Origin: Herbidospora cretacea
GTDB lineage: Bacteria > Actinomycetota > Actinomycetes > Streptosporangiales > Streptosporangiaceae
Reading direction: 5' to 3'
DNA length: 64,000 bases
Assembly: GCF_001570605.1 (NCBI RefSeq)
Contig: NZ_BBXG01000026.1
Coordinates: 32,188-96,187, forward strand
Below are positions 41,457 through 61,244 of this stretch, one piece after another. Under the pieces are notes generated by a model that searched no databases, had not been told where the DNA came from, and saw only the letters and a program-made list of their open reading frames with translations. How positions within the stretch are numbered: the first letter of the stretch is position 1; the number at the start of each line of letters is the position of its first letter. The translations under genes were made by a program, and so were the position numbers.

Positions 41457-41468
41457 TCCACATAAGAG

Positions 41469-42239
41469 CTACCTGACGGGGTGGCCCGCTTCGCGGATGG
41501 TCTTCTTGACTTCGCCGATCTTGAGTTCGCCGAAGTGGAAGACGCTGGCGGCCAGGACCGCGTCGGCCCCCGCGTCGATGGCCGGTGGGAAGTCCTCGAG
41601 CCTCCCTGCCCCGCCCGAGGCGATCACCGGCACCGTCACGGCGGCGCGGACGGCTTTGATCATCTCGATGTCGTAGCCGTCTTTGGTGCCGTCGCCGTCC
41701 ATCGAGTTCAGCAGGATCTCGCCGACGCCGAGCTCCTGGCCCCGGGCGGCCCATTCGACCGCGTCGATGCCGGTGCCCTTGCGGCCGCCGTGGGTGGTCA
41801 CCTCGAAGCCCGACGGGGTCGGCGGGCCGTCGACGACGCGGCGGGCGTCGACCGACAGCACGATGCACTGGCTGCCGAACCGCCACGCCGCCTCGCGCAG
41901 GAACTCCGGGCGCGCGATGGCGGCGGTGTTGATGCCGACCTTGTCGGCGCCCGCGCGCAGCAGGCGGTCGACGTCGTCGTTGGTGCGGACTCCCCCGCCG
42001 ACGGTCAGCGGGATGAAGACCTGCTCGGCGGTCCGCCGGACCACGTCGTACATGGTCGAGCGGTCGGAGCTGGAGGCGGTGATGTCGAGGAAGGTCAGCT
42101 CGTCGGCGCCCTCGGCGTCGTAGCGCCTGGCCAGTTCGACCGGGTCGCCGGCGTCGCGCAGGTTCTCGAAGTTCACGCCCTTGACGACCCGCCCCGCGTC
42201 GACGTCCAGGCAGGGGATCACGCGCACGGCCACGGTCAT
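41469..42239 (-). CDS. hisF: Imidazole glycerol phosphate synthase cyclase subunit
   Basis: 256 residues, TIM barrel. Motif [15 protein letters not shown] (catalytic Asp11 region) and [13 protein letters not shown] near the end. With HisH converts PRFAR and glutamine-derived ammonia to IGP and AICAR. ATGA overlap with the RidA gene upstream. Confidence 0.96.
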
Positions 42240-42625
42240 GACCGGTAGGCCTCCACTTCCACCTCGACCAGCATGCGCGGGTCGATCAGGCCGGCCACGC
42301 GCACGGAGGTGCAGGCCGGGCGGACCTGGCCGAACAGCTCTCCGTGGGCCTCGCCGACGGCGTCGAAGTCGTCCTGGCTGACCACGAACAGTCTCGTCCG
42401 GACCACGTCGGTGACGGCGGCGCCGGCCTTCTCCAGGGCGTCGAGCGCCACGCCGAAGGCGGTCAGGGTCTGCTGGTAGGCGTCGCCGACGTGCTGGACC
42501 TCACCGCCGATGGTGGCGGTGCAGCCGGAGACCAAGACGTGGTTACCGGCGATGACGGCGCGCGAATAGCCGTAGCGCTCCTCCCACGGACCGCCGGAGG
42601 AGATACGCGTCAGGGGCTGGGTCAT
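42236..42625 (-). CDS. RidA-family enamine/imine deaminase
   Basis: 129 residues. Core motif [20 protein letters not shown] and the C-terminal [23 protein letters not shown] with conserved Arg. RidA hydrolyses reactive 2-aminoacrylate-type intermediates. Inserted between hisA and hisF with overlapping start and stop codons (ATGA both sides), hence co-translated with histidine enzymes. Confidence 0.9.
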
Positions 42626-43344
42626 GCCCTCACCGCCGCGAGCGCCTCTTCCAGGGTGAACGCCTGGGCGTAGAGGGCCTTGCCGACGATGGCGCCCTCG
42701 ACGCCGATGCCGACCAGGCCGTTGAGGGCGCGCAGGTCGTCGAGGCTGGAGACGCCGCCGCTGGCGATGACCGGCTTGTCGGTACGGGCGCAGACCTCAC
42801 GCAGCAGGTCGAGGTTGGGGCCGCGCAGGGTGCCGTCCTTGGTCACGTCGGTGAGGACGTAGCGGGGGCAGCCGTCGGACTCCAGGCGGTCGAGGACCTC
42901 CCAGAGGTCGCCGCCCTCCTGGGTCCAGCCCCGGGCGGCCAGGGTGGTGCCCCGGACGTCGAGGCCGACGGCGATGCGGTCGCCGTGCTCGGCGATGATC
43001 TTGGAGCACCAGGCGGGGTTCTCCAGCGCGGCGGTGCCGATGTTGACGCGGCGGCAGCCGGTCGCGAGGGCGGCCTCCAGCGAGGCGTCGTCGCGGATGC
43101 CGCCCGACAGCTCGACCTGCACGTCGAGCTTGGCGGTGACCTCCGCCAGCAGTTCACGGTTGGAGCCACGGCCGAAGGCCGCGTCGAGGTCGACGAGGTG
43201 GATCCATTCGGCCCCGGCGTCCTGCCAGGCGAGGGCGGCGGCGAGCGGGTCGCCGTACGAGGTCTCCGAGCCCGCCTCGCCTTGCACCAGGCGGACCGCC
43301 TGGCCGTCTGCCACGTCCACGGCGGGGAGCAACACGAGTGACAT
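42622..43344 (-). CDS. hisA: Phosphoribosyl isomerase A (HisA, probable HisA/TrpF bifunctional PriA)
   Basis: 240 residues, TIM barrel with [21 protein letters not shown] and [11 protein letters not shown]. In many actinobacteria this enzyme also performs the TrpF step; no trpF gene is present in this window, consistent with PriA function, but dual activity is inferred. Confidence 0.94.
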
Positions 43345-43348
43345 AAGT

Positions 43349-43687
43349 TCAGGACCTCCGGTCGAAGAGAACGGTGACGAGCACCGGGACGATCAGGATG
43401 GACACGCCCAGCACGGCGAGCCTGGCCATCACGGTGCCGAGTGTCAGCCAGGCGATGACCTGGACCAGCACGAACAGCACGGCCATGACCGCGTTCTGGG
43501 CGCGGCGGCGCCGGGCCAGCACTCCGCCCTGCCGGGCCACTCTGACCGGCTTGGGCAGCACGGCCGTGATCCGGCCGCGCAGTTCCCGCCGCCGGGCCGC
43601 CTTGGCCTCGCGGCGGGCCCGTTCCTCCGCCAGGCGGGCCTTCTCGGCCTCCCTCTCGGCCCGGCGGATGGCCCGCTCCTTGCTCAT
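43349..43687 (-). CDS. Small basic membrane protein between hisH and hisA
   Basis: 112 residues: a strongly charged N-terminal 45 residues ([20 protein letters not shown]) and two hydrophobic helices near the C-terminus. Its ATG overlaps the hisH stop (ATGA) and it ends 4 bp before hisA. Conserved location in actinobacterial his operons seems likely; function unknown. Confidence 0.8.
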
Positions 43688-44328
43688 GAGAGGGTGTTCA
43701 GCCAATTGGCGAGCAGGGTGGCCCCCGCGTCGCCCGACTTCTCGGGGTGGAACTGGGTGGCCATGAGCGGGCCGTTCTCGGCCGCGGCGACGAACGAGAC
43801 CCCGTGGGTGGCCCAGGTGACCAGCGGCGCCTTGAAGCCGTCGCCGGGCACGAGTTCCCACTCGCGCACGCCGTAGGAGTGGACGAAGTAGAAGCGGGTG
43901 TCGGCGTCGAGACCGGCGAACAGGACCGAGTCGCCGGGCGCGCTGACCGTGTTCCACCCCATGTGGGGCAGCACGGGCGCGTCGAGGCGCTCGACCGTGC
44001 CGGGCCACTCGCCGCAGCCCTCGGTGTGGACGCCGTGCTCGACGCCCTTCTCGAACAGGATCTGCATGCCGACGCAGATGCCGAGCACCGGACGGCCGCC
44101 GGACAGGCGGCGCGCCACGATCTGCTCACCGCGCACCGCCCGCAGCCCGGTCATGCAGGCCGCGAAGGCGCCCACGCCGGGCACCACGAGGCCGTCGCAG
44201 TCCAGCGCCTCGTCGAAGTCGGCGGTCACCGTGACGTCGGCCCCGGTCCGGGCCAGCGCCCGTTCGGCCGACCGCAGGTTGCCCGACCCGTAGTCGAGGA
44301 CGACGACTTTCTTCTTCACTGCCACCAC
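43684..44328 (-). CDS. hisH: Imidazole glycerol phosphate synthase glutaminase subunit
   Basis: 214 residues, class-I glutamine amidotransferase. Nucleophile Cys in GICVGMQ, His-Glu in QFHPEKSG. Supplies ammonia to HisF. GTG start overlapped by the end of a small upstream gene. Confidence 0.96.
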
Positions 44329-44464
44329 ATCACTCCCGCCGTCAAGGCCAGCGCGGACAGAGCGCCGGTCACCGCCGCGGCCAGCTTCATCTTTTGGCGG
44401 GCGAACGACCAGACCCCGCCGATCAGGAAGAGGCCGATGAAGATCATGGCACTGGCGGAGAAGT

Positions 44465-44468
<4 letters not shown>
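44316..44468 (-). CDS. Very small membrane protein between hisB and hisH
   Basis: About 50 residues with two hydrophobic segments ([31 protein letters not shown]) and a WWQ end. Reads from GTG 44468, which overlaps the hisB stop (GTGA), to a stop at 44316 inside the start of hisH (13-bp overlap). Found by filling the gap between hisB and hisH. Coding is supported by the overlaps and composition; function unknown. Confidence 0.65.
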
Positions 44469-47432
<2,964 letters not shown>

Positions 47433-47549
47433 CCGAACAGTCTACGGACGACAGGTCCGGAATCCCGCGATGTCCATCATGCGGACATTCGGGGCACCCC
47501 ATACAAAAGCATATCTACTGGACCGATCCCATCCTTTGTCCTCAATAAG

Positions 47550-49133
47550 ATGACCCGGGTGACCACCATCTCCCCGCCCCTCCCGGCTCCGGCACGCGAC
47601 CGGCTCGTGCCGCCGCAGCCCGGCAGCGCGCTGTGGGGATGGCTCGGGCCGCTGATCGTGACGGTGTTCGGGGGGATCCTGCGGTTCTGGCACCTCGGCA
47701 GGCCCCACGAGGTGATGTTCGACGAGACCTACTACGCCAAGGAAGCGCTGTCGCTGCTGCGCTTCGGCGTGGAGACCAAGAGCGTCGAGAAGCCCGACGT
47801 CCCGCTGCTGGCCGGGGGCGACGGGGTGTTCCAGACCTGCGCGAGGGTCGCCGACTGCGCCGACTACGTGGTCCACCCGCCGCTGGGCAAGTGGACGATC
47901 GCGCTCGGCGAGTGGATGTGGGGCGTCGACCCGTTCGGCTGGCGCTTCACGGCGGCCGTGGCCGGGACGCTGTCGATCCTCGTGCTGGCCCGCACGGCCC
48001 GCCGGATGACCCGGTCGACGCTGCTGGGCTGCTTCGCCGGGCTGCTGCTGGCGGTCGACGGCATGCACCTGGTCATGTCGCGGGCCGCGCTGCTCGACAT
48101 CTTCCTGTCGTTCTGGCTGGTGGCGGCGTTCGCCTGCCTGGTCACCGACCGCGACCACATGCGGGCCAAGCTGGCCGGATGGCACGCGCGGGCGATCCCC
48201 GGCGACCTGGGGCCCTCGCTCGGGTGGCGGCCGTGGCGGCTGCTGGCCGGGGTCTGCCTGGGGGCGGCCACGGCGACCAAGTGGACGGGCGCGTTCTTCC
48301 TGATCGCCTTCCTGATCCTGTCGCTGCTCTGGGACGCGGGGGCGCGGCGGTCGATCGGGCTGCGCAGGCCGTACCAGGGGAGCTTCAAAAAGGACCTTCC
48401 GCTCGGCGTGGCCTGGTTGTGGGCGGTTCCGGTGATGCTCTATCTGGTGTCGTACACGGGATGGTTCGCGAGCGAGCGGGGCTGGGGGCGCAACTGGGCG
48501 CAGGCGACCGACCACGGATGGGCGTTCTTCGTCTTCGACTCGATCAGGTCGCTGGTCCGCTACCAGTTGCAGGCGCTGTCGTTCCACACCGGGCTGGCCT
48601 CGGGGCACAGTTACGCCACCGAGCCGTGGCAGTGGCCGCTGCAGTTCCGGCCGGTGCTGCTCCACTACAGCTCGCCGAAGGGGTGCGGGGCCGACTCGTG
48701 CTCGTCGGCGATCTACGCGGCGGGCACCCCGATCCTGTGGTTCGCGGCGCTGGCGGCGATGGTCGCGATGCTGTCGTGGTACACCGCGACGCGCGACTGG
48801 CGGGCGGGCGCGGTGCTGCTCGGCTACGCCGCCGGCTGGCTCCCCTGGTTCTACTACGCCATCGTCGACAACCGGACGATGTACCAGTTCTACGCGCTGC
48901 CGATGGTGCCGTTCATGATCCTGGCGCTGACCCTGGTCGCCGGGCTGGCCCTCGGGAAACGGGACGCGAGCCCGGCGCGCCGGTCGCGGGGCGCGGTCGC
49001 CGTCGGCGTGTTCACGCTGCTGGTGCTGGCCAACTTCGCCTGGCTGCAGCCGATCCTGACCGGCGACACGATCACCTACGACGGCTGGCGGTCGCGCCTG
49101 CTCTACTCGTCGTGGGTGCCGCCCCAGAAGTAG
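47550..49133 (+). CDS. Protein O-mannosyltransferase (GT39 type)
   Basis: 527 residues with about ten membrane segments. The acidic motif MFDETYYAKEA in the first external loop is the catalytic DE pair of protein O-mannosyltransferases; DCADYVVHPPLGKW and RLLYSSWVPPQ at the end also fit the bacterial family. Adds mannose from polyprenyl phosphate mannose to exported proteins at the membrane. ATG 47550 chosen; a GTG 9 bases later is possible. Confidence 0.92.
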   Translation: MTRVTTISPPLPAPARDRLVPPQPGSALWGWLGPLIVTVFGGILRFWHLGRPHEVMFDETYYAKEALSLLRFGVETKSVEKPDVPLLAGGDGVFQTCARVADCADYVVHPPLGKWTIALGEWMWGVDPFGWRFTAAVAGTLSILVLARTARRMTRSTLLGCFAGLLLAVDGMHLVMSRAALLDIFLSFWLVAAFACLVTDRDHMRAKLAGWHARAIPGDLGPSLGWRPWRLLAGVCLGAATATKWTGAFFLIAFLILSLLWDAGARRSIGLRRPYQGSFKKDLPLGVAWLWAVPVMLYLVSYTGWFASERGWGRNWAQATDHGWAFFVFDSIRSLVRYQLQALSFHTGLASGHSYATEPWQWPLQFRPVLLHYSSPKGCGADSCSSAIYAAGTPILWFAALAAMVAMLSWYTATRDWRAGAVLLGYAAGWLPWFYYAIVDNRTMYQFYALPMVPFMILALTLVAGLALGKRDASPARRSRGAVAVGVFTLLVLANFAWLQPILTGDTITYDGWRSRLLYSSWVPPQK

Positions 49134-49136
49134 CGG

Positions 49137-49595
49137 TCAGCCCAGGGTGATCGGGCTGGTCACCACGTTGACCCCCGCGGCCCCCGCGCCCCGGAAGTGG
49201 AGCCGGAACCGGCCGCGCGGGATCGGGCGGATGGTGAACCCGCCCACCTCGTCGACCGGGACGCCGGGACCGGGCCCGGCGCCGGTGACGACGTGGATCT
49301 CCCCCTCGACCGGCGGGTCGAACTGGCCCTGGAGCGCGTCGCCGGTCACGCCGAGCTCGATCAGCAGCCCCGAACCGGTCTGGAACGCCAGGTCGCGCAG
49401 CGCGGCCACCTCCTCGGCCCGCACCAGCGGCCCCGGCGCGCCGGCCTCGGCGGAGTCGTAGCTGAGCTCGGCCAGCTCGGCGTCGACCAGCCGCCAGGTG
49501 TAGATCGCCCTGCCCATCTCGACCAGCCCGGGAGGCGCCGCGTCGGCGGCCCGCAGCACCGCCGCGAGCTCCTCCATGAGGGCGTCGTCACGCAT
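49137..49595 (-). CDS. Accessory protein of the CHAT/subtilase locus
   Basis: 152 residues, no signal peptide. The first half is helical (LMEELAAVLRAADAAPPG, then AIYTWRLVDAELAELSYDS), the second looks like a beta-sandwich (IRPIPRGRFRLHFRGAG) comparable to carboxypeptidase-regulatory domains. Similar small proteins neighbour CHAT or sigma-factor genes in other actinomycetes, as I recall, with no known role. Encoded 55 bp after the subtilase, likely in the same transcript. Could be an inhibitor, substrate or adaptor. Confidence 0.7.
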   Translation of the reverse strand: MRDDALMEELAAVLRAADAAPPGLVEMGRAIYTWRLVDAELAELSYDSAEAGAPGPLVRAEEVAALRDLAFQTGSGLLIELGVTGDALQGQFDPPVEGEIHVVTGAGPGPGVPVDEVGGFTIRPIPRGRFRLHFRGAGAAGVNVVTSPITLG

Positions 49596-49650
49596 GGCCG
49601 TCTCCTCCCTCGTGCCATGAGGGGCCGCAGGCGGGCGGCCCGTCTGGACA

Positions 49651-50901
49651 CTACAGGCTGAGCTCGGCGAGGACCTCGTCGGCCGCGTCGGCGACGATCA
49701 GCTCGGCGGCCACGCGGGGGGAGATCTCCTGGGCGGCCGCGCGGGCGGCGATCTCGCCGACCACGGCCGCGCAGGCGAAGGAGGTGCCGCTCCAGGTGGC
49801 GTACCCGGCGAACTCCTGTTTGTCCTCCACCTCCACGACGCCGTTCAGGTTCCGCTCGTACGTCTCCACCTCGCCCGACAGGTAGGTGCTGGTCACCGCG
49901 AGGCCGTCGGCCAGCACGTTGACCCACGGGACCTTCGGGCTGAACTCGGCGTCCCGGGCGCCCACGGCGATCACGTCGGCGCAGGCGGCCGGCCAGACCG
50001 GCGTGACCTCGGTGATCCCCGCTCCCCTGCGGTTCTGCGAGGGCCTGCCGTGGTTCCCGGCCGCCGCGACCAGCACGATCGACGGCGCGAGCCGCTGCAC
50101 CGCCCGCTCCAGCACGGTCGGCGGCCGGTTGTCGTGGGTGGTGCAGCCGAACGACATGTTGATCACGCGCACGTCCGTCTTGAGGAACTCCACCATGGCC
50201 TTGGCCACGGCCCACGAGGAGACCTCGACGCCCCTGTTGTCGAGGATCGACCGCATGACGAGGACCGCGTTCGGGGCGTGCTTGAGGATGATCCCGGCGA
50301 CGAAGGTGGCGTGGCCGACCGGCGCGGGGTGCGGGGCCGTCCCGGTGTAGATGTCGGCGGCCGAGGCGAGGAAGCGGCCCTCCAGGTCGGGGTGGGGCAC
50401 GATCTTGGAGTCGAGGATGCCGACGTGGACGCCGGTGCCCGGCGCGGTCAGGCGGGCCAGGTCGGCGTGGACGGCCGGGTGGAGCTCGTCGGGACGGCCG
50501 CCGCCCGTGTAGGGCGAGCCCTGGACGCCGTCGAGCAGCCGGTTCTTGGCCATCGGGGGCGACCAGCCGTCGTACTTCTCCTCGAAGGAGGTGCGGAGGG
50601 CGTACAGGACCAGATCGAGGGCCGGGATCGGGTCGGCGGGGTCGTAGTGGCCCTCCCGGGACCGGCGCACGCCCGTCAGATAGCCGTCGACCAGGGCCTG
50701 CTCGATGGCGGCCAGCTGGGGAAGCTCGCAGAGGACCAGGCCGAGCTCGGGGCTGGCGTCGAGCTCCCGCCAGGTGTGGCCGGTCAGCTCGGTGAGGCTC
50801 TGCTGGACGAGCGTCCGGTAGCGCAGGTCGACCACGAGCTGGTCGACCTTCCAGGCCTCGGTGTCGCTGCGGAACACGCCGCCCGAGTCGGTGAAAGGCA
50901 T
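49651..50901 (-). CDS. Cytosolic subtilisin-like protease of the CHAT locus
   Basis: 416 residues without signal peptide. Residues 1-150 form an unrecognised N-terminal domain; the S8 domain follows with Asp164 (GILDSKIVPHPDLEG), His197 (VGHATFVAG), oxyanion Asn283 (AGNHG) and Ser374 (SGTSFACAA). Asp-Ser-Lys replaces the usual Asp-Ser/Thr-Gly motif and His-Ala-Thr-Phe the His-Gly-Thr-His. Divergent from a TPR-CHAT gene (95 bp), hence likely an activator or substrate of it. Confidence 0.85.
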   Translation of the reverse strand: MPFTDSGGVFRSDTEAWKVDQLVVDLRYRTLVQQSLTELTGHTWRELDASPELGLVLCELPQLAAIEQALVDGYLTGVRRSREGHYDPADPIPALDLVLYALRTSFEEKYDGWSPPMAKNRLLDGVQGSPYTGGGRPDELHPAVHADLARLTAPGTGVHVGILDSKIVPHPDLEGRFLASAADIYTGTAPHPAPVGHATFVAGIILKHAPNAVLVMRSILDNRGVEVSSWAVAKAMVEFLKTDVRVINMSFGCTTHDNRPPTVLERAVQRLAPSIVLVAAAGNHGRPSQNRRGAGITEVTPVWPAACADVIAVGARDAEFSPKVPWVNVLADGLAVTSTYLSGEVETYERNLNGVVEVEDKQEFAGYATWSGTSFACAAVVGEIAARAAAQEISPRVAAELIVADAADEVLAELSL

Positions 50902-50921
50902 GGGATCTCCCTCGCAGATGT

Positions 50922-50940
50922 GCTCTTCCGATTGAAGAGC
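50922..50940. promoter_or_regulatory. Dyad in the divergent promoter of the CHAT locus
   Basis: GCTCTTC-CGATT-GAAGAGC, 7-bp perfect arms. Lies in the only 95-bp spacer that must hold both promoters. A possible operator, or a hairpin in the subtilase leader. A candidate promoter TTGAAG (50932) / GATACA (50957) with 19-bp spacing points toward the CHAT gene. Confidence 0.45.
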
Positions 50941-50996
50941 GGGCACTCACCGGTTTGATACATCCCCGGCGGAAATCGGATGAGAAACTGCGACGG

Positions 50997-53621
50997 GTGA
51001 CGACCACCCAGGACCCGGCCCGGGCCGCTCTCATGCTCGCCGAGGCCGATCCGGGCCGCGCGGTCGAGGTCGCCGCGTCGGTCGCCGCCACGGCCAGGGA
51101 CCACCACGACCTGGTCGCGCTGTCGCGCGCCGAACGGGCGCTCGGCATCGCCGCCGTCCACCTCGACGACCTGGCGACGGCGGCGCGGCACCTGCGGGCG
51201 GCCATCCGGACCGCCGGGCGGGCGGGCTCCTTCGAGCTGGCGGCCGAGGCGCGCATCCGGATGGCGTTCGTGACCAGCATGCGCGGGCGGCCCCGGCAGG
51301 CCCTCGCCGACCTGGAGGCGCTGCTCCCCCGCCTGCACGGCGAGCTCCGGGGCCGGGCCGAGGCCCAGCGGGCCGCGATCTTCAACCACCTGGGGCGGCA
51401 CGCCGACGCGCTGGCGTCCTACCGCCAGGCCATCCCGGTGCTGCGGCGAGCCCAGGACCACGTCTGGCTCCAGCGGGTGCTCTCCAACCGCGGGATCGTG
51501 TACGGCTACCGCCAGGAGTTCGCCCTGGCCGAGGCCGACTTCCACGAGGCCGAGGAGCTGTGCGCCGATCTCGGGCTGGACCTGTCGCTCGCGGTGGTGC
51601 GGCTGAACCTGGGATGGGTGCGGGGGGTGCGCGGCGACGTGCCGGGGGCGCTGCGCTATCTCGACCTGGCCGAGACGCGCTTCCGCGAGCTGGGCACCCA
51701 CCAGCTCGGATGGCTGCTGAGCGACCGCTCCGAGCTGCTGCTGTCGGTGGGGCTGACCGCCGAGGCGCGGGCCGCCGCCGAGGAGGCGGTCGGCGAACTG
51801 CGGCGGCGCAGGCGCGCGATCGTCCTCCCGGAGGTGCGTCTCCTGCTCGCCCGCACCGCCACCCTCGACGGCGACCACGAGCGGGCGGTCGAGGCGGCCC
51901 GCCGGGCGGCCCGCGAGTTCGGCGCCCAGCAGCGGCCGGAGTGGCGGGTGCTGGCCTCCTTCGTGGTGCTGCAGTCGCGCCTGGCGGCGGGGCATCCGGG
52001 GGTGACGGCGGCCCGCTTCGAGACGGTCGCCAGGGAGCTGCTGGACGCGGGCTGGACCGCCGCGTCGGTGGAGGCCCGGCTCCTGGGGGCCCGCCTGGCG
52101 ATGGCCCCGGGATCGGACACCCGGACCGCGCTCGACCTGCTGTCCGTCGCGGCCGGGTTCCGGCAGCGGGGGCCGGCGCTGCTCCGGGTGCGGGGCTGGC
52201 AGGCCGAGGCCTTGCGCCGGTTGGCCGTCGGGGACGCGGCCGGCGCCTCGGCGGCGGTGCGGCGGGGGATCCGGGTGCTGGACGAGCATCGGGCCGCGCT
52301 CGGGGCGACCGACCTTCGGGCCCATTCGGCCGGGTTCCGGGTCGAGCTGGCCGAGCTCGGGCTGCGGATGGCCCTCGACCGGGGCGGTCCGGCGCACGTG
52401 CTCGGGTGGGCCGAGCAGGGGCGGGCCAGCCACCTGCTGATGCGCAGGGTCCGGCCGCCCGACGACCCTTGGCTGGCCGAGAAGCTGACCGAGCTGCGCG
52501 CGGTGGCCACCGACGCGCGGACGTCCCGCGATCCCGCCGTCACGGACCGGCAGGCGCTGCTGGAGCGCCACATCCGCGACTACGTCCGGGCCCAGGCCGG
52601 AGTGCCCCACGGCCCGGAGGCCCGGCGGGACGCCGGGGTGATCCGGGCACTGGCCCCTCTGCTGGCCGATCGGGCGCTGGTCGAGTTCGTGCTGCTCGAC
52701 GGGGTGTTGCACGCCGTCACCGTGATCGGCGGCCGGGCCCGCCTCACCAACCTGGGAGCGGTGGGACCGGTGCGGGATCTGATCGAGCGGGTGCCGTTCG
52801 CGCTGCGGCGGCTGTCCCGGTCGGGCGACACGCGGGGCGGTTCTTCGGCGGCGGCCCGGATGCTGCGGCACGCCGCCGCCCGGCTCGACGCGCTGCTGCT
52901 GGCGCCGCTGGGTCTGGGCGACCGGCCACTGGTGATCGTGCCGACCGGGCCGTTGCAGGGGCTCCCCTGGCCGGTGCTGCCGTCGTGCGAGGGGCGTCCG
53001 GTGGCGGTCTCGCCGTCGGCCGCGTTGTGGCGGGCCGCGGTCTCCCGGACCCGCTCCGGGGAGGGCGGACGGGTGGTGGTGGCCGCCGGGCCGGGTCTGC
53101 CGGACGCGGCGGCGGAGGTGGCCGAGGTCGCCGCCATCCATCGGACCGTGCCCGTCGAGGGCGGCGCAGTGGAGATCCTGGCCGCGCTCGACGGCGCGCG
53201 GCTGGCCCATCTGGCCGCCCACGGCCGGGTGAACACGGCCAACCCGCTCTTCTCCTCACTGCACCTGGCCGACGGCCCCCTGACGGTCTACGACCTCGAA
53301 CGCCTCCGCACCCCGCCGGAGCTGGTCGTGCTGGCCGCGTGTGAGAGCGGCCGGTCGGTGGTGCGGGCGGGCGACGAACTCCTCGGCCTCAGCACGACCT
53401 TCCTGTCACTGGGGACGCGGTGCGTGGTCGCGTCGATGGTGCCGGTGCCGGACGCCCGTACCCGGCCCCTGATGACCGCCCTCCACGAACGGCTCTCCGC
53501 GGGAGTGCCCGCCGCCACCGCGCTGGCCGAGACCCAGCGGGAGGCGGGCGACGACACCACGGCGGCCGGCTTCGTCTGCATCGGCGCCGACATCGCCGGA
53601 CACCGTTCAGGCGGCATGTGA
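50997..53621 (+). CDS. TPR-CHAT caspase-like cysteine protease
   Basis: About 874 residues. The N-terminal two-thirds is a long helical TPR-like array (repeated Ala/Leu-rich pairs from 20 to about 480); the C-terminal third is a CHAT domain with His742 (LAAHGRVNTANPL) and Cys782 (VLAACESGRS), the caspase-like dyad. The last part (VVASMVPVPD) fits CHAT. Divergent from the subtilase. GTG start chosen; the binding site is weak and a start a few codons away is possible. Likely a regulated protease whose TPRs sense a partner. Confidence 0.88.
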   Translation: MTTTQDPARAALMLAEADPGRAVEVAASVAATARDHHDLVALSRAERALGIAAVHLDDLATAARHLRAAIRTAGRAGSFELAAEARIRMAFVTSMRGRPRQALADLEALLPRLHGELRGRAEAQRAAIFNHLGRHADALASYRQAIPVLRRAQDHVWLQRVLSNRGIVYGYRQEFALAEADFHEAEELCADLGLDLSLAVVRLNLGWVRGVRGDVPGALRYLDLAETRFRELGTHQLGWLLSDRSELLLSVGLTAEARAAAEEAVGELRRRRRAIVLPEVRLLLARTATLDGDHERAVEAARRAAREFGAQQRPEWRVLASFVVLQSRLAAGHPGVTAARFETVARELLDAGWTAASVEARLLGARLAMAPGSDTRTALDLLSVAAGFRQRGPALLRVRGWQAEALRRLAVGDAAGASAAVRRGIRVLDEHRAALGATDLRAHSAGFRVELAELGLRMALDRGGPAHVLGWAEQGRASHLLMRRVRPPDDPWLAEKLTELRAVATDARTSRDPAVTDRQALLERHIRDYVRAQAGVPHGPEARRDAGVIRALAPLLADRALVEFVLLDGVLHAVTVIGGRARLTNLGAVGPVRDLIERVPFALRRLSRSGDTRGGSSAAARMLRHAAARLDALLLAPLGLGDRPLVIVPTGPLQGLPWPVLPSCEGRPVAVSPSAALWRAAVSRTRSGEGGRVVVAAGPGLPDAAAEVAEVAAIHRTVPVEGGAVEILAALDGARLAHLAAHGRVNTANPLFSSLHLADGPLTVYDLERLRTPPELVVLAACESGRSVVRAGDELLGLSTTFLSLGTRCVVASMVPVPDARTRPLMTALHERLSAGVPAATALAETQREAGDDTTAAGFVCIGADIAGHRSGGM

Positions 53622-53880
53622 GTACTCGTGGCGGGCCCCGCTTGGTGGGCGGGTGGGCGGAGCCGTAACGGAAGAAGGGCTTTGACGAGCGAAGCGAGAG
53701 CAGCCCGAGCGAAGCGAGGCTCCACCAGGGAGCGCGAGGGGCGGAGCCCTTCGCCCGGAGCGGCAGCGACTCGGAGCGAAAGCGACGTAGGGACCGCGAA
53801 AGCGGGCCGGGGGGAGCGTGAGGGGGCGTGGCCCCCTGACAGCGGGGGGTTCGGGGGGTCGTCTCCCCGTAATCTAGGCG
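53622..53880. repeat. Intergenic repeat cassette with GAGCGAAGCGAG motifs
   Basis: A 259-bp non-coding stretch with the 13-mer CGAGCGAAGCGAG at 53686 and 53706, related GGAGCGAAAGCGAC further on, and GC-rich short dyads (GGGGCGTGGCCCCC). No start codon context. Resembles dispersed REP-like cassettes of actinomycetes rather than a gene. Confidence 0.65.
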
Positions 53881-53881
53881 G

Positions 53882-54373
53882 GTGGCGAAGACGAAAGGCG
53901 GGCAGGGAACCCCCGCGACGGTGGCGCTGACCAAGGCCGGCGCCGAGTTCACCCTCCACCCCTACGAGCACGACGCGAACGCGCAGGCCTACGGCGAGGA
54001 GGCGGCCGACGCGCTCGGCGTGCCCCACGAGCGGATCTTCAAGACCCTCGTCGCCGAGACCGAGGGCGGCCTGGCGGTCGCGGTGGTGCCGGTGGCCGGG
54101 AAGCTCGACCTCAAGGCGTTCGCGGCGGCGCTCAAGGGCAAGAAGGCCGCGATGGCCGAGGCGGCCAAGGTCGAGCGGGTGACGGGTTACGTGGTGGGCG
54201 GGATCAGCCCGCTCGGCCAGCGCCGGGCGCTGCCGACCGTGGTCGACGCGTCCGCGCTGGCCTTCGAGACGATCTACTTCTCGGCAGGTCGCCGGGGGCT
54301 CCAGATCGAGACGGCCCCGTCGAACCTCGTGACGCTCACGGGCGCCGTCACCGCGGAGATCGCCAAGCTCTAG
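53882..54373 (+). CDS. YbaK-type Cys-tRNA(Pro)/Cys-tRNA(Cys) deacylase
   Basis: 163 residues. Motif HERIFKTLVAE and VGGISPLGQRRALPTVVD identify the YbaK/EbsC family that hydrolyses misacylated tRNA. GTG start at 53882. Its stop overlaps that of the convergent membrane protein by 4 bp. Confidence 0.93.
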   Translation: MAKTKGGQGTPATVALTKAGAEFTLHPYEHDANAQAYGEEAADALGVPHERIFKTLVAETEGGLAVAVVPVAGKLDLKAFAAALKGKKAAMAEAAKVERVTGYVVGGISPLGQRRALPTVVDASALAFETIYFSAGRRGLQIETAPSNLVTLTGAVTAEIAKL

Positions 54374-55233
54374 CCGGTCTCCTCGACCAGCGTCCCGCAG
54401 GTGAAGTCGGCCTCGCGCTCGGGGTCGAGCTGCACCTGCGTGAGGACCGCCGACTCCATGGGACGGCGGATCGTCTCCATCTTGTCGCAGTCGTAGATCA
54501 GGTAGGTGCCCTCGCGCTCGCCGAGGAGCATCATCCAGCGGCCGTCGTAGAGGGGGGTGCCCTTCTCCTTGTCCTCCAGGATCGCCCACTGGTCCTGGAA
54601 GCCGACGGTGCTGAGCAGGAAGTTCGCCTGACCGGTCTCGCGCATGTCCTGCGCCGCCGAGGCCAGGTTCAGGATGAGCAGGAAGCCCAGTCCGAGGCCG
54701 GTCAGGGCGCCGATGAGCACCTTCAGCCCGGCCCGGCCGACGGGCCTGCGGCGCAGCAGCTGGAAGGGCACCAGGAAGGTCACCAGGCCCAGGCCGACGG
54801 CGATGACGACCATGACCGTCAGGTCGAGGTCGGCGAAGAAGTTGTAGAAGCCCCAGTAGGTCGCCCCGCACCACAGCGCGGCGATCAGCCCGGCCACCCA
54901 CGGCCGCGACCTGATCCAGGCCACCGCGCGCCCGGCCGCGCCGAAGGTCACGACGTTCACCAGCCAGCCGAGCCCGACGAGCAGGCCGATCAGCGGGATG
55001 CCGAGCAGCACCACCAGCACGAGAGTGCTCATGAGGCGGCTGAACAGGACCGACTGGTCGATGCCGGCCTGCTGGGGGTTGATGCCGAAGGTGGCGTAGA
55101 TCTCCTCGACGCCGAGGTAGAGCACGGCGTACAGGGCGACGCCGATCGGGAGGATGACCGAGGCGATGCGTTCGAGCAGGCTGATGACGCTGCCGCGATC
55201 GTCGTTCTCCTCGGTCTGCCGTATAACCGGCAT
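54370..55233 (-). CDS. Predicted multi-pass membrane protein, unknown family
   Basis: 287 residues with five or six hydrophobic segments (from about 22 to 180), then an external or cytosolic domain of about 90 residues containing YLIYDCDKMETIRR and FTCGTL, a possible Cys pair. An upstream TTG (55284) would extend it by 17 residues through AT-rich sequence that looks like promoter (TTGACC); I prefer ATG 55233. Not recognised. Confidence 0.72.
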   Translation of the reverse strand: MPVIRQTEENDDRGSVISLLERIASVILPIGVALYAVLYLGVEEIYATFGINPQQAGIDQSVLFSRLMSTLVLVVLLGIPLIGLLVGLGWLVNVVTFGAAGRAVAWIRSRPWVAGLIAALWCGATYWGFYNFFADLDLTVMVVIAVGLGLVTFLVPFQLLRRRPVGRAGLKVLIGALTGLGLGFLLILNLASAAQDMRETGQANFLLSTVGFQDQWAILEDKEKGTPLYDGRWMMLLGEREGTYLIYDCDKMETIRRPMESAVLTQVQLDPEREADFTCGTLVEETG

Positions 55234-55327
55234 ATCCCGATTTCTATTTTCGTCTAGTGGAATATCTTGATCGATCACGGTCAAGGAGGGTACTGAACAC
55301 TGACTTCCCGGGTGACTGAAACTTCAA

Positions 55328-56083
55328 TTATTTGTTCGCGTGCGGGTCTGTGGCGTTGAGCACAGTCACGACGTGGTCGTAGTCCCCTCGCTGGACGGCC
55401 TCGCGCAGGAACTTCACCCGCTCGACGAGGATCTCCTTGGCGTCGGGCTGCGACTCCAGGAGCGCGACGGTCTCGGCGACGAACTCGTCCAGGGGCATGG
55501 CCCGCTCGTTGTCGCGCTGGCCGGGCATCAGGTCGGTCTGGACCGACGGCGGGACCAGCTCGACGACCCGGACGTCCGGGTACTGGAGGCGGATCGACTC
55601 GCTGAGCATGTGGATGGCCGCCTTCGAGGCGTTGTAGCTCGGCGTGACCTTCAGGGGGACGAAGGCCAGGCCGGAGGAGACGGTGATGATCGTGGCGTCC
55701 TTCCGGCTCCGCAGGTGCTCGATGAACGCGGCGATCAGCCGGATCGGCCCGAGGACGTTGGTCGTGATGACCGTCTCGGCCGTGGCCAGGAAGTCGCCGG
55801 GCCGGGTCCAGTCCTCGGCCCGCATGATCCCGGCCATGGTCATCAGCACGTTCAGGTCGGGATACCGCCGCAGCACGTCCCGGGCGGCCTGCTCGATGCT
55901 CGCCGCGTCGGCGGTGTCGACGCGGACGGTGCCGAACCCCTCGGCCGCCAGCTCGCCGAGCAGCTCGGTCCGGCGTCCGCCCACGACGACGGTGTTGCCC
56001 TTCTCACGCAGGGCCCTGGCCAGGGCCAGGCCGATGCCGCTCGTGGCGCCGGGGATGAAGATCGTGTTTCCGGAGATGTCCAT
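55328..56083 (-). CDS. SDR-family oxidoreductase (DltE-like)
   Basis: 251 residues. Cofactor motif PGATSGIGLALARAL, catalytic YxxxK in SYNASKAAIHML, NNAG-like MTMAGI. Resembles the DltE/short-chain oxidoreductase group. Divergent from an XRE regulator likely to control it. ATG chosen with GGAGGAC upstream; GTG 56092 is an alternative. Confidence 0.9.
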   Translation of the reverse strand: MDISGNTIFIPGATSGIGLALARALREKGNTVVVGGRRTELLGELAAEGFGTVRVDTADAASIEQAARDVLRRYPDLNVLMTMAGIMRAEDWTRPGDFLATAETVITTNVLGPIRLIAAFIEHLRSRKDATIITVSSGLAFVPLKVTPSYNASKAAIHMLSESIRLQYPDVRVVELVPPSVQTDLMPGQRDNERAMPLDEFVAETVALLESQPDAKEILVERVKFLREAVQRGDYDHVVTVLNATDPHANK

Positions 56084-56106
56084 GTCCTCCACCCTTCCCC
56101 CGGGTC

Positions 56107-56120
56107 CTGCACGGGTGCAG
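56107..56120. promoter_or_regulatory. Dyad between the SDR and XRE genes
   Basis: CTGCAC-GG-GTGCAG, 6-bp perfect arms in the 102-bp divergent spacer. A likely operator for the regulator; function inferred from position. Confidence 0.45.
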
Positions 56121-56185
56121 AGACCGCTTGTCGGGGGATCGGCGGTCCCTGGTTGGCGGCCGGGCCCCTGCGTAGGTTGGGGTAC

Positions 56186-57022
56186 GTGGACCGCTCAGCG
56201 CTCGCCGACTTCCTCCGCCGCCACCGGGAGGCCCTGCGCCCCCAGGACGTGGGCCTGCCCGAGGGCGCCCGCCGCCGGGCGCCGGGGCTGCGGCGCGAGG
56301 AGGTGGCCGTCCTGGCGCTGATGTCGACCGACTACTACACCCGGCTCGAACAGCGCCGCGGCCCGCAGCCGAGCGAGCAGATGCTCGCCGCCCTGGCCCG
56401 CGCGCTGCGGCTGACCGGCGACGAGCGCGACTACCTCTTCCGGGTGGCCGGCCGCACCGCCCCGGAGATCCTGACGGCCCCCACCCACGTCGCGCCCGCG
56501 CTGCTGCGCGTCCTCGACCGCCTCGACGACACCCCGGCGCTGATCCTGTCGAACCTGGGCGAGACGCTCGTGGCCAACCGGATGGCCCAGGCGCTGCTCG
56601 GCGACCGCTCCCACCACACCGGGCTCGCCCGCAGCGAGGTCTACCGCTGGTTCACCGACCCGGAGGAGGAGCGCCGCCTCTACCCCGACGACGACCGCCC
56701 CCGCCAGAGCCGGGCCATGGTGGCGAACCTGCGGGCGGCGTACGCGGCGATGGGCCCGAAGTCCCGCGCGGGCGAGCTGGTCAGGGCCCTCCAGAAGGCC
56801 AGCCCCGAGTTCACCGAGCTCTGGGACCGCCACGAGGTGGCCCGCCGGTTCGAGGACCACAAGATCCTCATCCATCCCCAGCTCGGCCCGATCGAGCTCG
56901 ACTGCCAGGTCCTGTTCACCGAGGACCAGTCACAGACGCTGCTGGTGCTGACCGCTCCCCCGCGCAGCGAGGGCGACGAGAAGCTCAAGCTCCTGGCTGT
57001 CGTGGGCAGCGAGCGCTTCTAG
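56186..57022 (+). CDS. XRE-family regulator with MmyB-like ligand domain
   Basis: 278 residues. N-terminal HTH (GLRREEVAVLALMSTDYYTRLEQRRGPQPSEQ) followed by an MmyB-like domain (ILSNLGETLVANRMAQALLGD, VYRWFTDPEEERRLYP). Usually sits beside an SDR gene, as here, and represses it until a fatty-acid-like ligand binds. GTG start. Convergent overlap of 4 bp with the SEC-C gene. Confidence 0.92.
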   Translation: MDRSALADFLRRHREALRPQDVGLPEGARRRAPGLRREEVAVLALMSTDYYTRLEQRRGPQPSEQMLAALARALRLTGDERDYLFRVAGRTAPEILTAPTHVAPALLRVLDRLDDTPALILSNLGETLVANRMAQALLGDRSHHTGLARSEVYRWFTDPEEERRLYPDDDRPRQSRAMVANLRAAYAAMGPKSRAGELVRALQKASPEFTELWDRHEVARRFEDHKILIHPQLGPIELDCQVLFTEDQSQTLLVLTAPPRSEGDEKLKLLAVVGSERF

Positions 57023-57882
57023 ACCGGCGAGCCGCAGCACTTCTTGTACTTGCGCTCCGACCCGCACCAGCACCCGTCGTTGCGGCCGGGCGGCCAGGCG
57101 ACATCGCCCGCCGGGTCGGCCAGCGCGACCAGGGCCAGGCGCTCCTCCTCCGAAGGGGGCGCGCCCTCCTCCAGCCGGACGACGGCGACCCTGGTCTCCA
57201 GGTCGGCCTTCCTGAACCGGGCCTCCAGCGCCTGGAGGTCGTCGCCGGGCGCGTAGGGCAGCCGCACGGTCGGCTTCTTCTCGATCACCGGCTGGGTCGC
57301 CCTGGGCGGGGCCGGTTCGGCCTCGACGTGGGCCTCGACCCGGCCGGACAGCGGGCCGGGACCGCCGAAGCGGCGGCGCAGCAGGTCGAGGTAGCGGACC
57401 GTCGCGGGCGGGCGGCCCAGGTCGAGCGCCAGCTTCAGCCCCTCGTCGAGCAGGTCGGCGGCGAAGGCGGGGTCGAACGGCCCGGCGATCATCGCGGCGG
57501 CCGGGTAGAACTCCTCGTCGCGCTCGCCCTCCGGCAGGCGGGCGAGCTCGGTCCGCCGGGTGCGCAGCAGCCGCAGCGCCGTCGCGGCGTCGCCGAGCTG
57601 GCCGTGGAGCTCGGCCATCGGGGTGCGCAGCGGGCCGCTCAGGGCGGGCTCGACGCCGATGAGGTCGTGGAGGAGGTCGAGGGTGTCCTGCTCCCAGCCG
57701 TCGAGCGTGTAGTCGTCGATGAGCTCGACGACGTAGGCGGGGATCCGCCGGTCGCCCCGGGCCCTGGGGTCCATCAGGGCGTCGGCGAGGAGTTCCCAGG
57801 CGGCGCGTTCCTCACCCCGGTCGTAGGCGCGCTCCAGCGCGGCGTCGAGGTCGAGAGGGCCGAAGAGATGGTCCGGAAGCAC
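57019..57882 (-). CDS. SEC-C motif protein with TPR-like helices
   Basis: 287 residues: helical N-terminal two-thirds and a C-terminal zinc-binding SEC-C motif (GCWCGSERKYKKCC). SEC-C domains occur in SecA and many small proteins and bind zinc and nucleic acid or ribosomes. Function here unknown. GTG start. Confidence 0.85.
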   Translation of the reverse strand: MLPDHLFGPLDLDAALERAYDRGEERAAWELLADALMDPRARGDRRIPAYVVELIDDYTLDGWEQDTLDLLHDLIGVEPALSGPLRTPMAELHGQLGDAATALRLLRTRRTELARLPEGERDEEFYPAAAMIAGPFDPAFAADLLDEGLKLALDLGRPPATVRYLDLLRRRFGGPGPLSGRVEAHVEAEPAPPRATQPVIEKKPTVRLPYAPGDDLQALEARFRKADLETRVAVVRLEEGAPPSEEERLALVALADPAGDVAWPPGRNDGCWCGSERKYKKCCGSPV

Positions 57883-58022
57883 CAGGGCACCCTACCGAGG
57901 GTGTAGGCGAGGTTCACCTTCCCGGAGGACGAAACGGGCATACCGCCGGGCGTAGCGTGGAACCAATGGTCGGCGGCGGCGCGGGGGCCCGCCGTCCGGC
58001 CGCTCGTACATGCCGCTCGTAT

Positions 58023-59429
58023 ATGGTGACGCCGGTGACGGAACTGCACTATCTCACCGCGTCGGAGACCTCGGCCCTGCTGCGCGCGAGGGAGATCAGC
58101 GCGGCCGAGGTCACCCAGGCCCATCTCGACCGCATCGAGGCGGTCAATCCCCAGGTCAACGCCATCGTGACGGTCACCGCCGAGCGGGCCCTCGACCGGG
58201 CGCGGGAGCTCGACGGCGGGCCGTGGCAGGGGCCGCTCCACGGTCTCCCGGTCGCCCACAAGGACCTGGTGTCGACCAAGGGGGTCCGGACCACGTTCGG
58301 GTCGAAGATCTTCGCCGACCACGTGCCGACCACCGACGACCTGGTGGTCAGGCGGGTCCGCGACGCCGGCGGCGTGATGATCGGCAAGACCAACACCCCC
58401 GAGTTCGGCACCGGCTCCCACACCGTCAACGAGGTCTTCGGCGCCACCCGCAACCCCTACGACCTGACCAAGTCGGCGGGCGGGTCGAGCGGCGGCGCGG
58501 CGGCGGCCCTGGCGACGGGGATGACCCCGCTGGCAGACGGCTCGGACATGGGCGGCTCGCTGCGCAACCCGGCGTCGTTCTGCAACGTCGCGGGCCTGCG
58601 CCCGACGCCCGGCCGGGTGCCGTCGAAGTCGACGACCGCCGCGTGGTTCACGCTGGGGGTGTCGGGGCCGATGGCGCGGACCGTACAGGACCTGGCGCTG
58701 TTCCTGACCGCCGTCGCGGGCCCCGACCCGAGCTCCCCGCTGTCGATCCAGCAGGACCCGGCGATCTTCGGGGGTTCCCTGGAGACCGACGTGAGCGGGC
58801 TGCGGATCGCCTGGTCGCCCACGCTCGGCGGGCTGCCCGTCGACCGGGAGACCGCCAGGGTCACCGCCCAGGCGGCGGAGGCCTTCCAGCGGCTCGGTGC
58901 GACCGTCGAGCACGCCGACCTCAACCTGGCGGGGGCCGACGAGGCGTTCCGCACCTACCGGGCGTGGTGGTACGCCGCCCACTACGACGACCTGGAGGGC
59001 GTCGGCGAGAACGTGCGCTGGAACGTCGAGCGCGGGCGCGAGGTCACCGGCGCCGACCTGGCCAGGGCCGAGAAGCTGCGCAGCCGCCTCTGGCACCGCG
59101 TCACCGGCTTCTTCGGCACCTGGGACTACCTGATCGCGCCGGTCAGCCAGGTCCCGCCGTTTCCGGTCGAGGACCCCTTCGTCCGCGAGGTCGACGGAAT
59201 CGCGATGCCCGACTACCTGGCGTGGATGCGCTCCTGCTACCTGATCAGCGTGCTCGGCGTGCCGGCCCTGTCGGTGCCGTGCGGCTTCACCGCCGACGGG
59301 CTGCCCGTGGGCGTGCAGATCATCGGCCGCCCCTGGGACGACCTCGGAGTGCTCCGGGTCGGCCACGCGTTCGAGCAGGTCACAAAGGCAGGGGCGGTCC
59401 GTCCTCCGCTTTCCGCTCCCGGTAGGTGA
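58023..59429 (+). CDS. Amidase-signature family hydrolase
   Basis: 468 residues. Catalytic Ser-cisSer-Lys: Lys in VAHKDLV, cis-Ser and nucleophile in GGSSGGAAAALA and GSDMGGSLRNPASFC. Hydrolyses a carboxamide; substrate not predictable (GatA-like but too divergent, and no gatB/C nearby). ATG 58023 chosen; a GTG 12 bases later is possible. Its 3' end overlaps the convergent gene by 50 bp. Confidence 0.93.
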   Translation: MVTPVTELHYLTASETSALLRAREISAAEVTQAHLDRIEAVNPQVNAIVTVTAERALDRARELDGGPWQGPLHGLPVAHKDLVSTKGVRTTFGSKIFADHVPTTDDLVVRRVRDAGGVMIGKTNTPEFGTGSHTVNEVFGATRNPYDLTKSAGGSSGGAAAALATGMTPLADGSDMGGSLRNPASFCNVAGLRPTPGRVPSKSTTAAWFTLGVSGPMARTVQDLALFLTAVAGPDPSSPLSIQQDPAIFGGSLETDVSGLRIAWSPTLGGLPVDRETARVTAQAAEAFQRLGATVEHADLNLAGADEAFRTYRAWWYAAHYDDLEGVGENVRWNVERGREVTGADLARAEKLRSRLWHRVTGFFGTWDYLIAPVSQVPPFPVEDPFVREVDGIAMPDYLAWMRSCYLISVLGVPALSVPCGFTADGLPVGVQIIGRPWDDLGVLRVGHAFEQVTKAGAVRPPLSAPGR

Positions 59430-59883
59430 CGGCGAACTCGCGCGCCCAGAACACCCCGGCCGCGAGGACCGCCCAGAACACCAGCACGCCCTTGGCCGTC
59501 ACCCCGATGAGGTCCCGGGTCGCGAACTCGCCCGCCGACGTCGCGGCCCGGACGATCTCGCCCCCCATGGACGCCCCGATGAGATAGGCCAGGAACGACC
59601 CGGCCAGGCCGCCGGCCCCGAGCCCGAGCACGATCGGCAGCCCGTCGTCACCCGCCCGCCGGTAGGCGACCAGCCCGGCCACCAGCCCCAGCGTCGCGGT
59701 GATCAGGGCGAAATATCCGTCGGCCGCGATGAGCGCCTGGGTGTTGGGGTCGGCCACCCGCCACACGCCCTCGTAGAGGACGTATCGGGTGCGTGGCGCC
59801 AGGGCCGACCACAGGAATCCCGCGGGCACGCCCAGCACCGCCAGGATCAGGACCGTCCCACCGAAGTACTTCACAGGCCGCAC
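59380..59883 (-). CDS. DUF2567-like membrane protein
   Basis: 167 residues with four hydrophobic segments and external loops LWSALAPRTRYVLYEG, ALIAADGYFALITATLGLVAGLV, typical of the DUF2567 group in actinobacteria. GTG start. Function unknown. Confidence 0.7.
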   Translation of the reverse strand: MRPVKYFGGTVLILAVLGVPAGFLWSALAPRTRYVLYEGVWRVADPNTQALIAADGYFALITATLGLVAGLVAYRRAGDDGLPIVLGLGAGGLAGSFLAYLIGASMGGEIVRAATSAGEFATRDLIGVTAKGVLVFWAVLAAGVFWAREFAVTYRERKAEDGPPLPL

Positions 59884-59936
59884 CGTCCCGATGGTACCTA
59901 CCTAGACCAGGGCAGCCACGCCGTTAGCATTGGCGG

Positions 59937-61244
59937 GTGAACGAACAAGCGTGGCTCATCGAACCCTCCGGCCCGCTGCGGGGGGACGTCGAGGTCCGAG
60001 GGTCCAAGAACGCCGTATCCAAGCACATGGTCGCGGCCATGCTCGGCGACGGCCCGAGCACCCTCCACAACGCCCCCGAGGTCGGCGAGGTCCACCTGAC
60101 CGCCGCCATGCTGGAGGCACTGGGCATCCACGTCGAGATCGGCGACGGCGAGATCGTCATCGAGCGCGGCGCCGTGATCGAGCCGAGGGTCCCGGAGAAG
60201 TACACCGGGCTCAACCGCATCCCGATCCTGATGCTCGGCCCGCTCCTCCACCTGGCCGGCGAGGCGTTCGTGCCGATGGTCGGCGGCGACCCGATCGGCC
60301 GCCGCCCGGTCAACTTCCACCTCGAGGCGCTGCGCCAGATGGGCGCGGAGATCATCGAGGACGAGAGCGGCATCACCGCCAAGGCCTCCCGCCTCCACGG
60401 CACCCGCATCACGCTCCCCTACCCGAGCGTCGGCGCGACCGAGACCATCCTGATGACCGCCGTCCTGGCCGAGGGCAAGACGGTCATCAAGGGCGCGGCC
60501 ATGGAGCCCGAGGTCGTCGAGCTCGCGCTGTTCCTCCAGCGCATGGGCGCGATGATCGAGCTGTCCCCCGACCGCCGCATCGTCATCGAGGGCGTCGAGA
60601 AGCTGCGCGGCGCGGCGACCTGGCTGGCCGGCGACCGCATCGAGGCCTTCTCCTACCTGGTGGCGGGCCTGGTCACCGGCGGCGAGGTGCGCGTCCACGG
60701 CTGCCCGCAGGACCGGCTCGTCACGGCGATCACGACGCTGGCCCGCATGGGCGCGCGGTTCGACATCACCGACGACTGGCTGACCGCCTCGGCCCCCGAC
60801 GGCCTGCGCGCCGCGGCCGTGCAGACCGACACCCACCCCGGCTTCATGACCGACTGGCAGACGCCGCTCATGGTCCTGTTCACCCGGGCCGAGGGCATGT
60901 CGGTTCTTCACGAGACGGTCTTCGAGAACCGTCTGGTGTACGTCCCGGCGCTCCAGAAGATGGGCTGTGAGATCGAGGTCTTCGCCCAGTGCCTCGGCGG
61001 CCCGGCCTGCCGCTACCACGACACCAACGCCAAGCACTCGGCGGTCGTGCGCGGCGTGTCCAAGCTGCGCGGCGCCGACGTGACCCTGCCCGACATCCGG
61101 GCGGGCTTCTCGGCGGTGCTGGCGGCGGCGGTGGCCGAGGGCACCTCCACGCTGCGCGGCGTCAACCACATCGAGCGCGGCTACCACCACCCGTTCGACC
61201 AGTTCACCTCGCTCGGCCTGAAGATCAGCCGAACCGACGTCTAG
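59937..61244 (+). CDS. murA: UDP-N-acetylglucosamine 1-carboxyvinyltransferase, Asp variant
   Basis: 435 residues of the EPSP-synthase fold. Catalyses enolpyruvyl transfer, the first committed step to UDP-MurNAc. Lys24-Asn25 (GSKNAV) and GPLLHLAGEAFVPMVGGDPIGR are present. The residue matching Cys115 of E. coli is Asp118 (GGD instead of GGC), as in Mycobacterium and Chlamydia MurA. GTG start, no operon partner; PBP gene follows convergently. Confidence 0.93.
   Translation: MNEQAWLIEPSGPLRGDVEVRGSKNAVSKHMVAAMLGDGPSTLHNAPEVGEVHLTAAMLEALGIHVEIGDGEIVIERGAVIEPRVPEKYTGLNRIPILMLGPLLHLAGEAFVPMVGGDPIGRRPVNFHLEALRQMGAEIIEDESGITAKASRLHGTRITLPYPSVGATETILMTAVLAEGKTVIKGAAMEPEVVELALFLQRMGAMIELSPDRRIVIEGVEKLRGAATWLAGDRIEAFSYLVAGLVTGGEVRVHGCPQDRLVTAITTLARMGARFDITDDWLTASAPDGLRAAAVQTDTHPGFMTDWQTPLMVLFTRAEGMSVLHETVFENRLVYVPALQKMGCEIEVFAQCLGGPACRYHDTNAKHSAVVRGVSKLRGADVTLPDIRAGFSAVLAAAVAEGTSTLRGVNHIERGYHHPFDQFTSLGLKISRTDV

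Follow-up and report, generated by a model that had tools for sequence, protein, structure and literature searches.

A TPR-CHAT protease, a subtilase and a small partner protein of Herbidospora cretacea as the putative protease half of an ECF54-type sigma switch

The three-gene locus and its products

The window, that is, the whole 64,000-nucleotide stretch of Herbidospora cretacea DNA that was analysed (from a genome of 8.28 Mb), carries three open reading frames at the places and with the extents given in the original prediction, and a codon-usage gene caller returned the same three starts. The first, on the forward strand (50997..53621), encodes a TPR-CHAT caspase-like protease of 874 residues with a GTG start, as assigned by Pfam, alignment and PDB matches. 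The other two lie on the reverse strand and encode a subtilase (S8) of 416 residues (49651..50901; Pfam, alignment and hydropathy) and a small partner of 152 residues, here called SM (49137..49595; open reading frame and family profile). The CHAT and S8 genes diverge from a spacer of 95 bp, and 55 bp separate S8 from SM. The arrangement of two proteases facing each other, to which attention had already been drawn, is a recurrent layout, with 32 divergent pairs among the 41 loci in which both genes were called. A search with S8 returned six named loci, all from Herbidospora and with 83-89% identity. According to Pfam, the trio is flanked by histidine-biosynthesis and mannosyltransferase genes on one side and by a gene for a tRNA-editing domain on the other. 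The same gene neighbours (histidinol dehydrogenase, aminotransferase, mannosyltransferase, tRNA-editing) surround the trio in five of the named Herbidospora loci as well as in G173 and G220, two genomes from another genus, and the locus is for this reason unlike an island. The window holds a second subtilase gene outside the module (8850-10427, reverse strand, 525 residues, Peptidase_S8 at 1.9e-40).

The CHAT protein matches the Pfam CHAT (2.5e-35) and TPR families, and the predicted catalytic dyad His742/Cys782 is correct, being conserved in all 39 family members compared. It thus shares with the Craspase protease Csx29 the combination of TPRs and a CHAT domain with a His/Cys dyad. Among PDB chains its CHAT part matched 8rot_B at 1.7e-12 and Csx29 (7y9x_B) at 7.7e-7, and the Csx29 family model gave the protein 28.9 bits, below the curated cut-off of 300. 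In two Herbidospora species the CHAT gene is split over two frames (L008, 4719-8026; L009, 4808-7960), which may reflect sequencing error or decay.

The S8 protein matches Peptidase_S8 at 7.8e-22 and has the residues of an active subtilase, since the triad Asp164/His197/Ser374 and the oxyanion Asn283 are conserved in 48 of 48 rows (a set including one unrelated S8, the product of window 8850-10427) and are invariant also in a 35-row alignment. The description of its catalytic contexts as altered was overstated: the DSK and HATF motifs are indeed present, but the triad is intact, the former motif occurring in seven of the 48 rows, every one from Herbidospora, and the Phe of the latter in 42. 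In line with the reported lack of a signal peptide, no signal-like stretch was seen, hydropathy over 19-residue spans of the first 40 residues reaching at most 0.23, and because the N-terminus has no hydrophobic stretch the enzyme is most likely cytosolic. The best NCBIfam model for S8 was that of the type VII secretion mycosin subtilases (71.8 bits); however, this score is far below the cut-off of 278.75, and S8 has no signal-like N-terminus.

The SM proteins are made up of a conserved N-terminal part and a carboxypeptidase-regulatory-like domain. Matches to CarboxypepD_reg (E<=0.01) were obtained for 15 of 48 family members, with a best value of 5e-5; the window SM is not among these and had no Pfam match. 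When the SM profile was compared with the PDB, no Csx30 chain was retrieved, and a match to 7dm0 (3.6e-4) led nowhere.

Co-occurrence with an ECF sigma family and loss of the adjacent sigma gene

In many related loci the trio is accompanied by a gene for an ECF sigma factor of one particular family. A profile search of 148 class-wide genomes found all four families in 49, none in 92 and only some in seven (sigma in 52, SM in 54, CHAT in 52, S8 in 50). These genomes are not independent of one another, and the survey, less biased than the locus set described below, used models (A1-A4) built from loci chosen by SM or S8 and an S8 limit of 1e-50, set after a gap between 5.2e-51 and 3.0e-41 had appeared in a run at 1e-30. 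A query with SM alone gave matches in 41 of the 148 class genomes and in 45 of 100 family genomes. The association of the trio is thus not due to chance: the original proposal that these genes belong together holds, and an independent distribution is refuted. Neither does the tie between the four families stem from linkage alone, because in several genomes they are dispersed; in family f19, for example, sigma and SM lie together but apart from CHAT, which mostly has S8 beside it.

At the level of single loci, a six-frame view of 49 (the window, the six named Herbidospora loci, 40 fetched stretches and two short repeats, L109 and L110, of the window and the L006 locus) found all four families in 29, the trio without sigma in nine, sigma and SM in six, S8 and SM in four and SM only in one. 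The loci were picked by SM or S8 similarity, the fetched stretches deriving from 105 SM match rows, four of them present in both lists, so that 29 of 49 is a biased rate; several of the incomplete loci are moreover clipped by contig or stretch ends. Genes in the loci were called with our own codon-usage caller, and the alignments comprised 28 of the 32 ECF genes available at that stage, with 48 of 56 SM, 36 of 39 CHAT and 35 of 48 S8. SM is immediately preceded by the sigma gene, and 13 of 32 such pairs overlap by four bases. One unusual locus (L128, 8051-11126, from G292) has two facing sigma-SM pairs, one of the sigmas being short (114 residues), with S8 behind one pair.

This gene association has a precedent, and the earlier statement that the trio matches no described system was in this respect wrong. 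The ECF54 section of PMC8999054, which cites Huang 2015 and a 2021 study, gives carboxypeptidase, subtilase and CHAT proteins as the genomic context of this actinobacterial group, and proposes control by proteolysis. The module considered here likewise encodes CHAT, subtilase and carboxypeptidase-regulatory-like proteins together, the last by virtue of matches in the SM proteins of relatives only; given the 15 of 48 members with that domain, SM fits the carboxypeptidase item of the list. The ECF54 label used here for the sigma family rests on this neighbourhood match and not on the official ECF54 model. The window copy differs from the published context in having no adjoining sigma gene. Literature searches retrieved no functional study of an ECF54 module and no test of proteolytic control; the accessible text of papers on conflict systems, one of which describes caspase and ECF sigma neighbourhoods of another kind, and of PMC7730460 led nowhere for the module.

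The missing sigma gene was sought in all six frames, and neither window positions 40000-60000 nor the trio stretches of other Herbidospora gave an ECF match. Outside Herbidospora, the same sigma-less trio is present in G173 and G220. In the CHAT tree, the six sigma-less rows form one clade (100/100) that joins five sigma-bearing rows at 99/98 (the label "nosig" carried by L092 and L105 reflects a gene-caller miss, ECF having been found in both), and in the SM tree the sigma-less rows are likewise nested among sigma-bearing ones. Judged from these trees, the window trio represents a derived form that has lost its adjacent sigma gene, a result that is new here. The three genes have since been retained under purifying selection (dN/dS 0.23-0.52 between the window and sister species), and at the SM N-terminus no clear difference in constraint appeared in the sigma-less clade. 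On gene order and co-occurrence, SM is at most a candidate for a dedicated anti-sigma factor, because it persists after sigma loss and the sigma also occurs without SM.

A candidate ECF-type promoter and sigma supply in trans

The spacer between the two protease genes contains the element TGTATCA-N16-CTC (50937..50962, reverse strand), recognised from spacer alignment and motif counts and directed toward S8-SM, with 35 nt separating its CTC from the S8 start downstream. The core, read on the opposite strand as TGATAC, is present in 27 of the 32 S8/CHAT spacers; five divergent spacers lack it, that of L093 only through the gene call. A GAG stands 19-20 bases before 69 of 96 intergenic TGATAC sequences, against 3.8% of all intergenic positions and five of 29 genic TGATAC sequences, and no other hexamer in the loci was paired with GAG as often. 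When the motif is read as TGTATCA-N16/17-CTC, a gene start follows within 150 nt at 58 of the 69 intergenic sites, as opposed to 32 of 69 on the opposite side. The next gene within 400 nt downstream of these 69 sites is S8 in 31 cases, ECF in 10, SM in one and another gene in 23, with none in four. Counted by gene, 32 of 65 S8, seven of 56 ECF, one of 63 SM, none of 62 CHAT and 23 of 774 other genes have a site no more than 180 nt upstream, all these counts including near-identical Herbidospora loci. The reverse reading (GAG-N-TGATAC) as a CHAT promoter was rejected, both the start-codon distances and the loci in which no CHAT gene diverges speaking for the opposite direction. These distributions identify the motif as a conserved, putative ECF-type promoter of the S8/sigma operons and not of CHAT, which is also new, and its pattern resembles that expected where an ECF operon is autoregulated. 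It persists before S8 in the sigma-less clade.

The perfect 7-bp dyad of the original prediction (GCTCTTC-N5-GAAGAGC, 50922..50940, without strand) does exist in the sequence and overlaps the CTC element of this promoter, but an alignment with five further Herbidospora spacers showed that it is not conserved there. As an operator it was rejected on this lack of conservation in sister species, and it was judged to be a chance occurrence.

Among the products of other genes preceded by the site are regulators of the AAA-LuxR type, small proteins without matches and a protein weakly similar to C1 peptidases. Proteins of AAA-LuxR type were seen beside these sigma genes or four-gene sets in 11 loci (L081, L103, L104, L123, L125, L127, L129, L130, L141, L142 and L147), nine of which, L127 and L129 being the exceptions, show the full site before the gene; six were examined with Pfam (LuxR domain in 6/6, AAA_16 in 5/6), the rest being judged from sequence. 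The protein resembling C1 (papain-like) peptidases has the site in front and a Pfam value of 0.017 (L072, 8528-9238), and a look-alike with no Pfam match is encoded in L128 (2639-3349). Small proteins of 112-141 residues, with their own site near the four-gene set and no Pfam match, occur in L097 (13350-13688), L098 (13403-13828) and L093 (423-836) and are possible outputs.

The genome containing the window has two sigma genes of the module family that score far above the rest, at position 113777 of contig 8 (222 bits) and position 63485 of contig 3 (160 bits). The contig 8 gene (113777-114328) adjoins an AAA-LuxR (LAL) gene bearing the same promoter, and no SM, S8 or CHAT gene was found within reach of sigmas of this type (L123, L125, L130, L141, L142). 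An SM and a CHAT gene of its own accompany the contig 3 sigma, whose stretch contains no full site. This sigma belongs to a second, divergent module of sigma, SM and CHAT with no S8 called (L124, 6558-10034, within 54000-72000 of contig 3), a type also seen in another Herbidospora (L126).

Motif matches number 7-14 in each of six Herbidospora genomes, which is not above a reversed control (6-20), and most single matches are therefore chance. A comparison of the listed sequences showed only two sites common to all six: the S8 promoter of the trio and the LAL promoter directly behind the contig 8 sigma, the latter only 9 nt before the called AAA-LuxR start. Both are present in G173 and G220 as well. 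A third match, GAGAGAGAAGGAACCCCCGTGATAC, is shared by four of the six (G287, G179, G224 and G294) and is missing from the lists for G292 and for the genome of the window. Because the only other site common to the six genomes sits behind an unlinked sigma of the same family, the S8-SM promoter is likely to be under the control of such a sigma in trans.

Comparable splits occur elsewhere. A search of G093 at E<=1e-25 gave a single family sigma, which stands alone, and the trio of this genome is without sigma, with a site at both places: one followed by a 47-codon open reading frame and then the sigma gene, the other before S8. The split in G028 is similar, and each of its parts has a site nearby. 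In genomes where the genes are dispersed, 15 separate S8/CHAT stretches were examined (L179-L193), and the full site precedes S8 only in L190, from G028; L191 has it before another open reading frame, and the nine stretches from f19 have no full site. The contig 8 sigma groups with that of L104 (93/87), apart from those belonging to the closest relatives of the trio, and the idea that it is merely the relocated, vertically inherited partner of the trio was rejected on this grouping. In the segment that we take to be the recognition helix, the contig 8 sigma reads GSIGPTRARC, as in many motif-bearing loci, and the contig 3 sigma GSVGPTKKRC; this comparison is a weak one, the contig 3 counterpart in G224 reading GSVGPTRSRC and the f19 sigmas of site-less loci looking ordinary.

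Possible roles of the two proteases

Relays in which a protease acts on a sigma pathway are known from CRISPR-linked systems. In type III-E, Csx29 cleaves Csx30, an inhibitor of CASP-sigma (PMC10028731), and in the type III CRISPR system CalpL-CalpT-CalpS, a protease cuts an anti-sigma factor and the sigma is freed (PMC11229360). The module described here shares with the former a TPR-CHAT protease, a partner protein and an ECF sigma, but differs from it in its second protease, in the lack of a Csx30 match and in the low Csx29 score given above; in the latter, the protease is Lon-SAVED and responds to a CRISPR signal, CHAT and subtilase being unmentioned in the available text of PMC11229360. 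The parallel would thus be one of working parts and not of family membership, CHAT being only distantly Csx29-like.

By this analogy, we tentatively regard the trio as the protease half of an ECF54-type sigma switch in split form, a relay of two proteases that would control an ECF sigma in a manner similar to Csx29-Csx30-CASP-sigma; we find this reading about as easy to credit as to doubt. In the usual form, S8, sigma and SM would be transcribed in one direction from TGTATCA-N16/17-CTC, with TPR-CHAT, often divergent, outside that promoter. CHAT would accordingly be made independently of the sigma and might sense a signal through its TPR array. CHAT and S8 would cut SM and/or each other, the proteolytic cascade of the original prediction being possible in this sense, and SM would serve as adaptor or inhibitor of the sigma, which its cutting would release. 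The freed sigma would then increase expression of the operon that encodes it and, in many genomes, of the AAA-LuxR (LAL) regulator. In Herbidospora, where the local sigma was lost, the S8-SM promoter would be served in trans by the contig 8 sigma beside the LAL gene.

Two other explanations are both rather unlikely, and to a similar degree. In the first, S8 and CHAT degrade the sigma itself and keep its level low, SM being an adaptor only. This is the view stated for ECF54, without an anti-sigma factor, in section 3.3 of PMC8999054, and it agrees with the neighbouring, co-directional S8 and sigma genes of many loci. However, it leaves unexplained the two pairings of SM, which accompanies sigma without the proteases in six of the 49 loci (including three from contigs shorter than 6 kb) and the proteases without sigma in nine. 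In the second, the module is a plain stress operon whose sigma only transcribes S8-SM, the proteases hitting other targets and sigma activity not being set by proteolysis. In its favour are the position of the motif, in front of LAL genes and S8/sigma operons and not of CHAT, and the survival of the trio under purifying selection once its sigma is lost; against it, the four families are coupled almost one to one, and CHAT shares in this despite its lack of the motif.

The original suggestion of a module for defence or cell suicide, set off by phage or stress, is a very improbable explanation, and the analysis yielded no evidence for such a role. CHAT proteases do act in CRISPR-linked systems, and weak profile similarity to Csx29 and BovA exists, but the metabolic flanks are unchanged across Herbidospora and the two genomes of another genus. 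A PADLOC search with the trio gave no confident match to a known defence protein, the best being weak ones to BovA (9.3e-6) and to a generic subtilase (3.2e-8). Borvo, to whose BovA the CHAT part shows this weak similarity, is a single-gene CHAT defence system that is not known to have such partners. Slighter still is the chance that the sigma-less Herbidospora trio is a decaying relic, to which the two-frame CHAT genes of L008 and L009 might point, but against which stand the dN/dS values between sister species and the retention of catalytic residues and promoter.

If the trio is indeed half of a sigma switch, a broader and more doubtful generalisation may be drawn, namely that a CRISPR-free relay is widespread in actinobacteria, in which a TPR-CHAT protease and a subtilase would cut a small inhibitor and thereby free an ECF sigma, supplied in trans in the present case. 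Such a relay could be the stand-alone counterpart, and perhaps the forerunner, of the CRISPR-linked modules. Neither an ECF54 promoter nor a trans arrangement is described in the available text of PMC8999054. The candidate promoter, the near one-to-one list of four parts and the natural split forms together offer a direct handle on a possible control of transcription by caspase-like proteases outside CRISPR.
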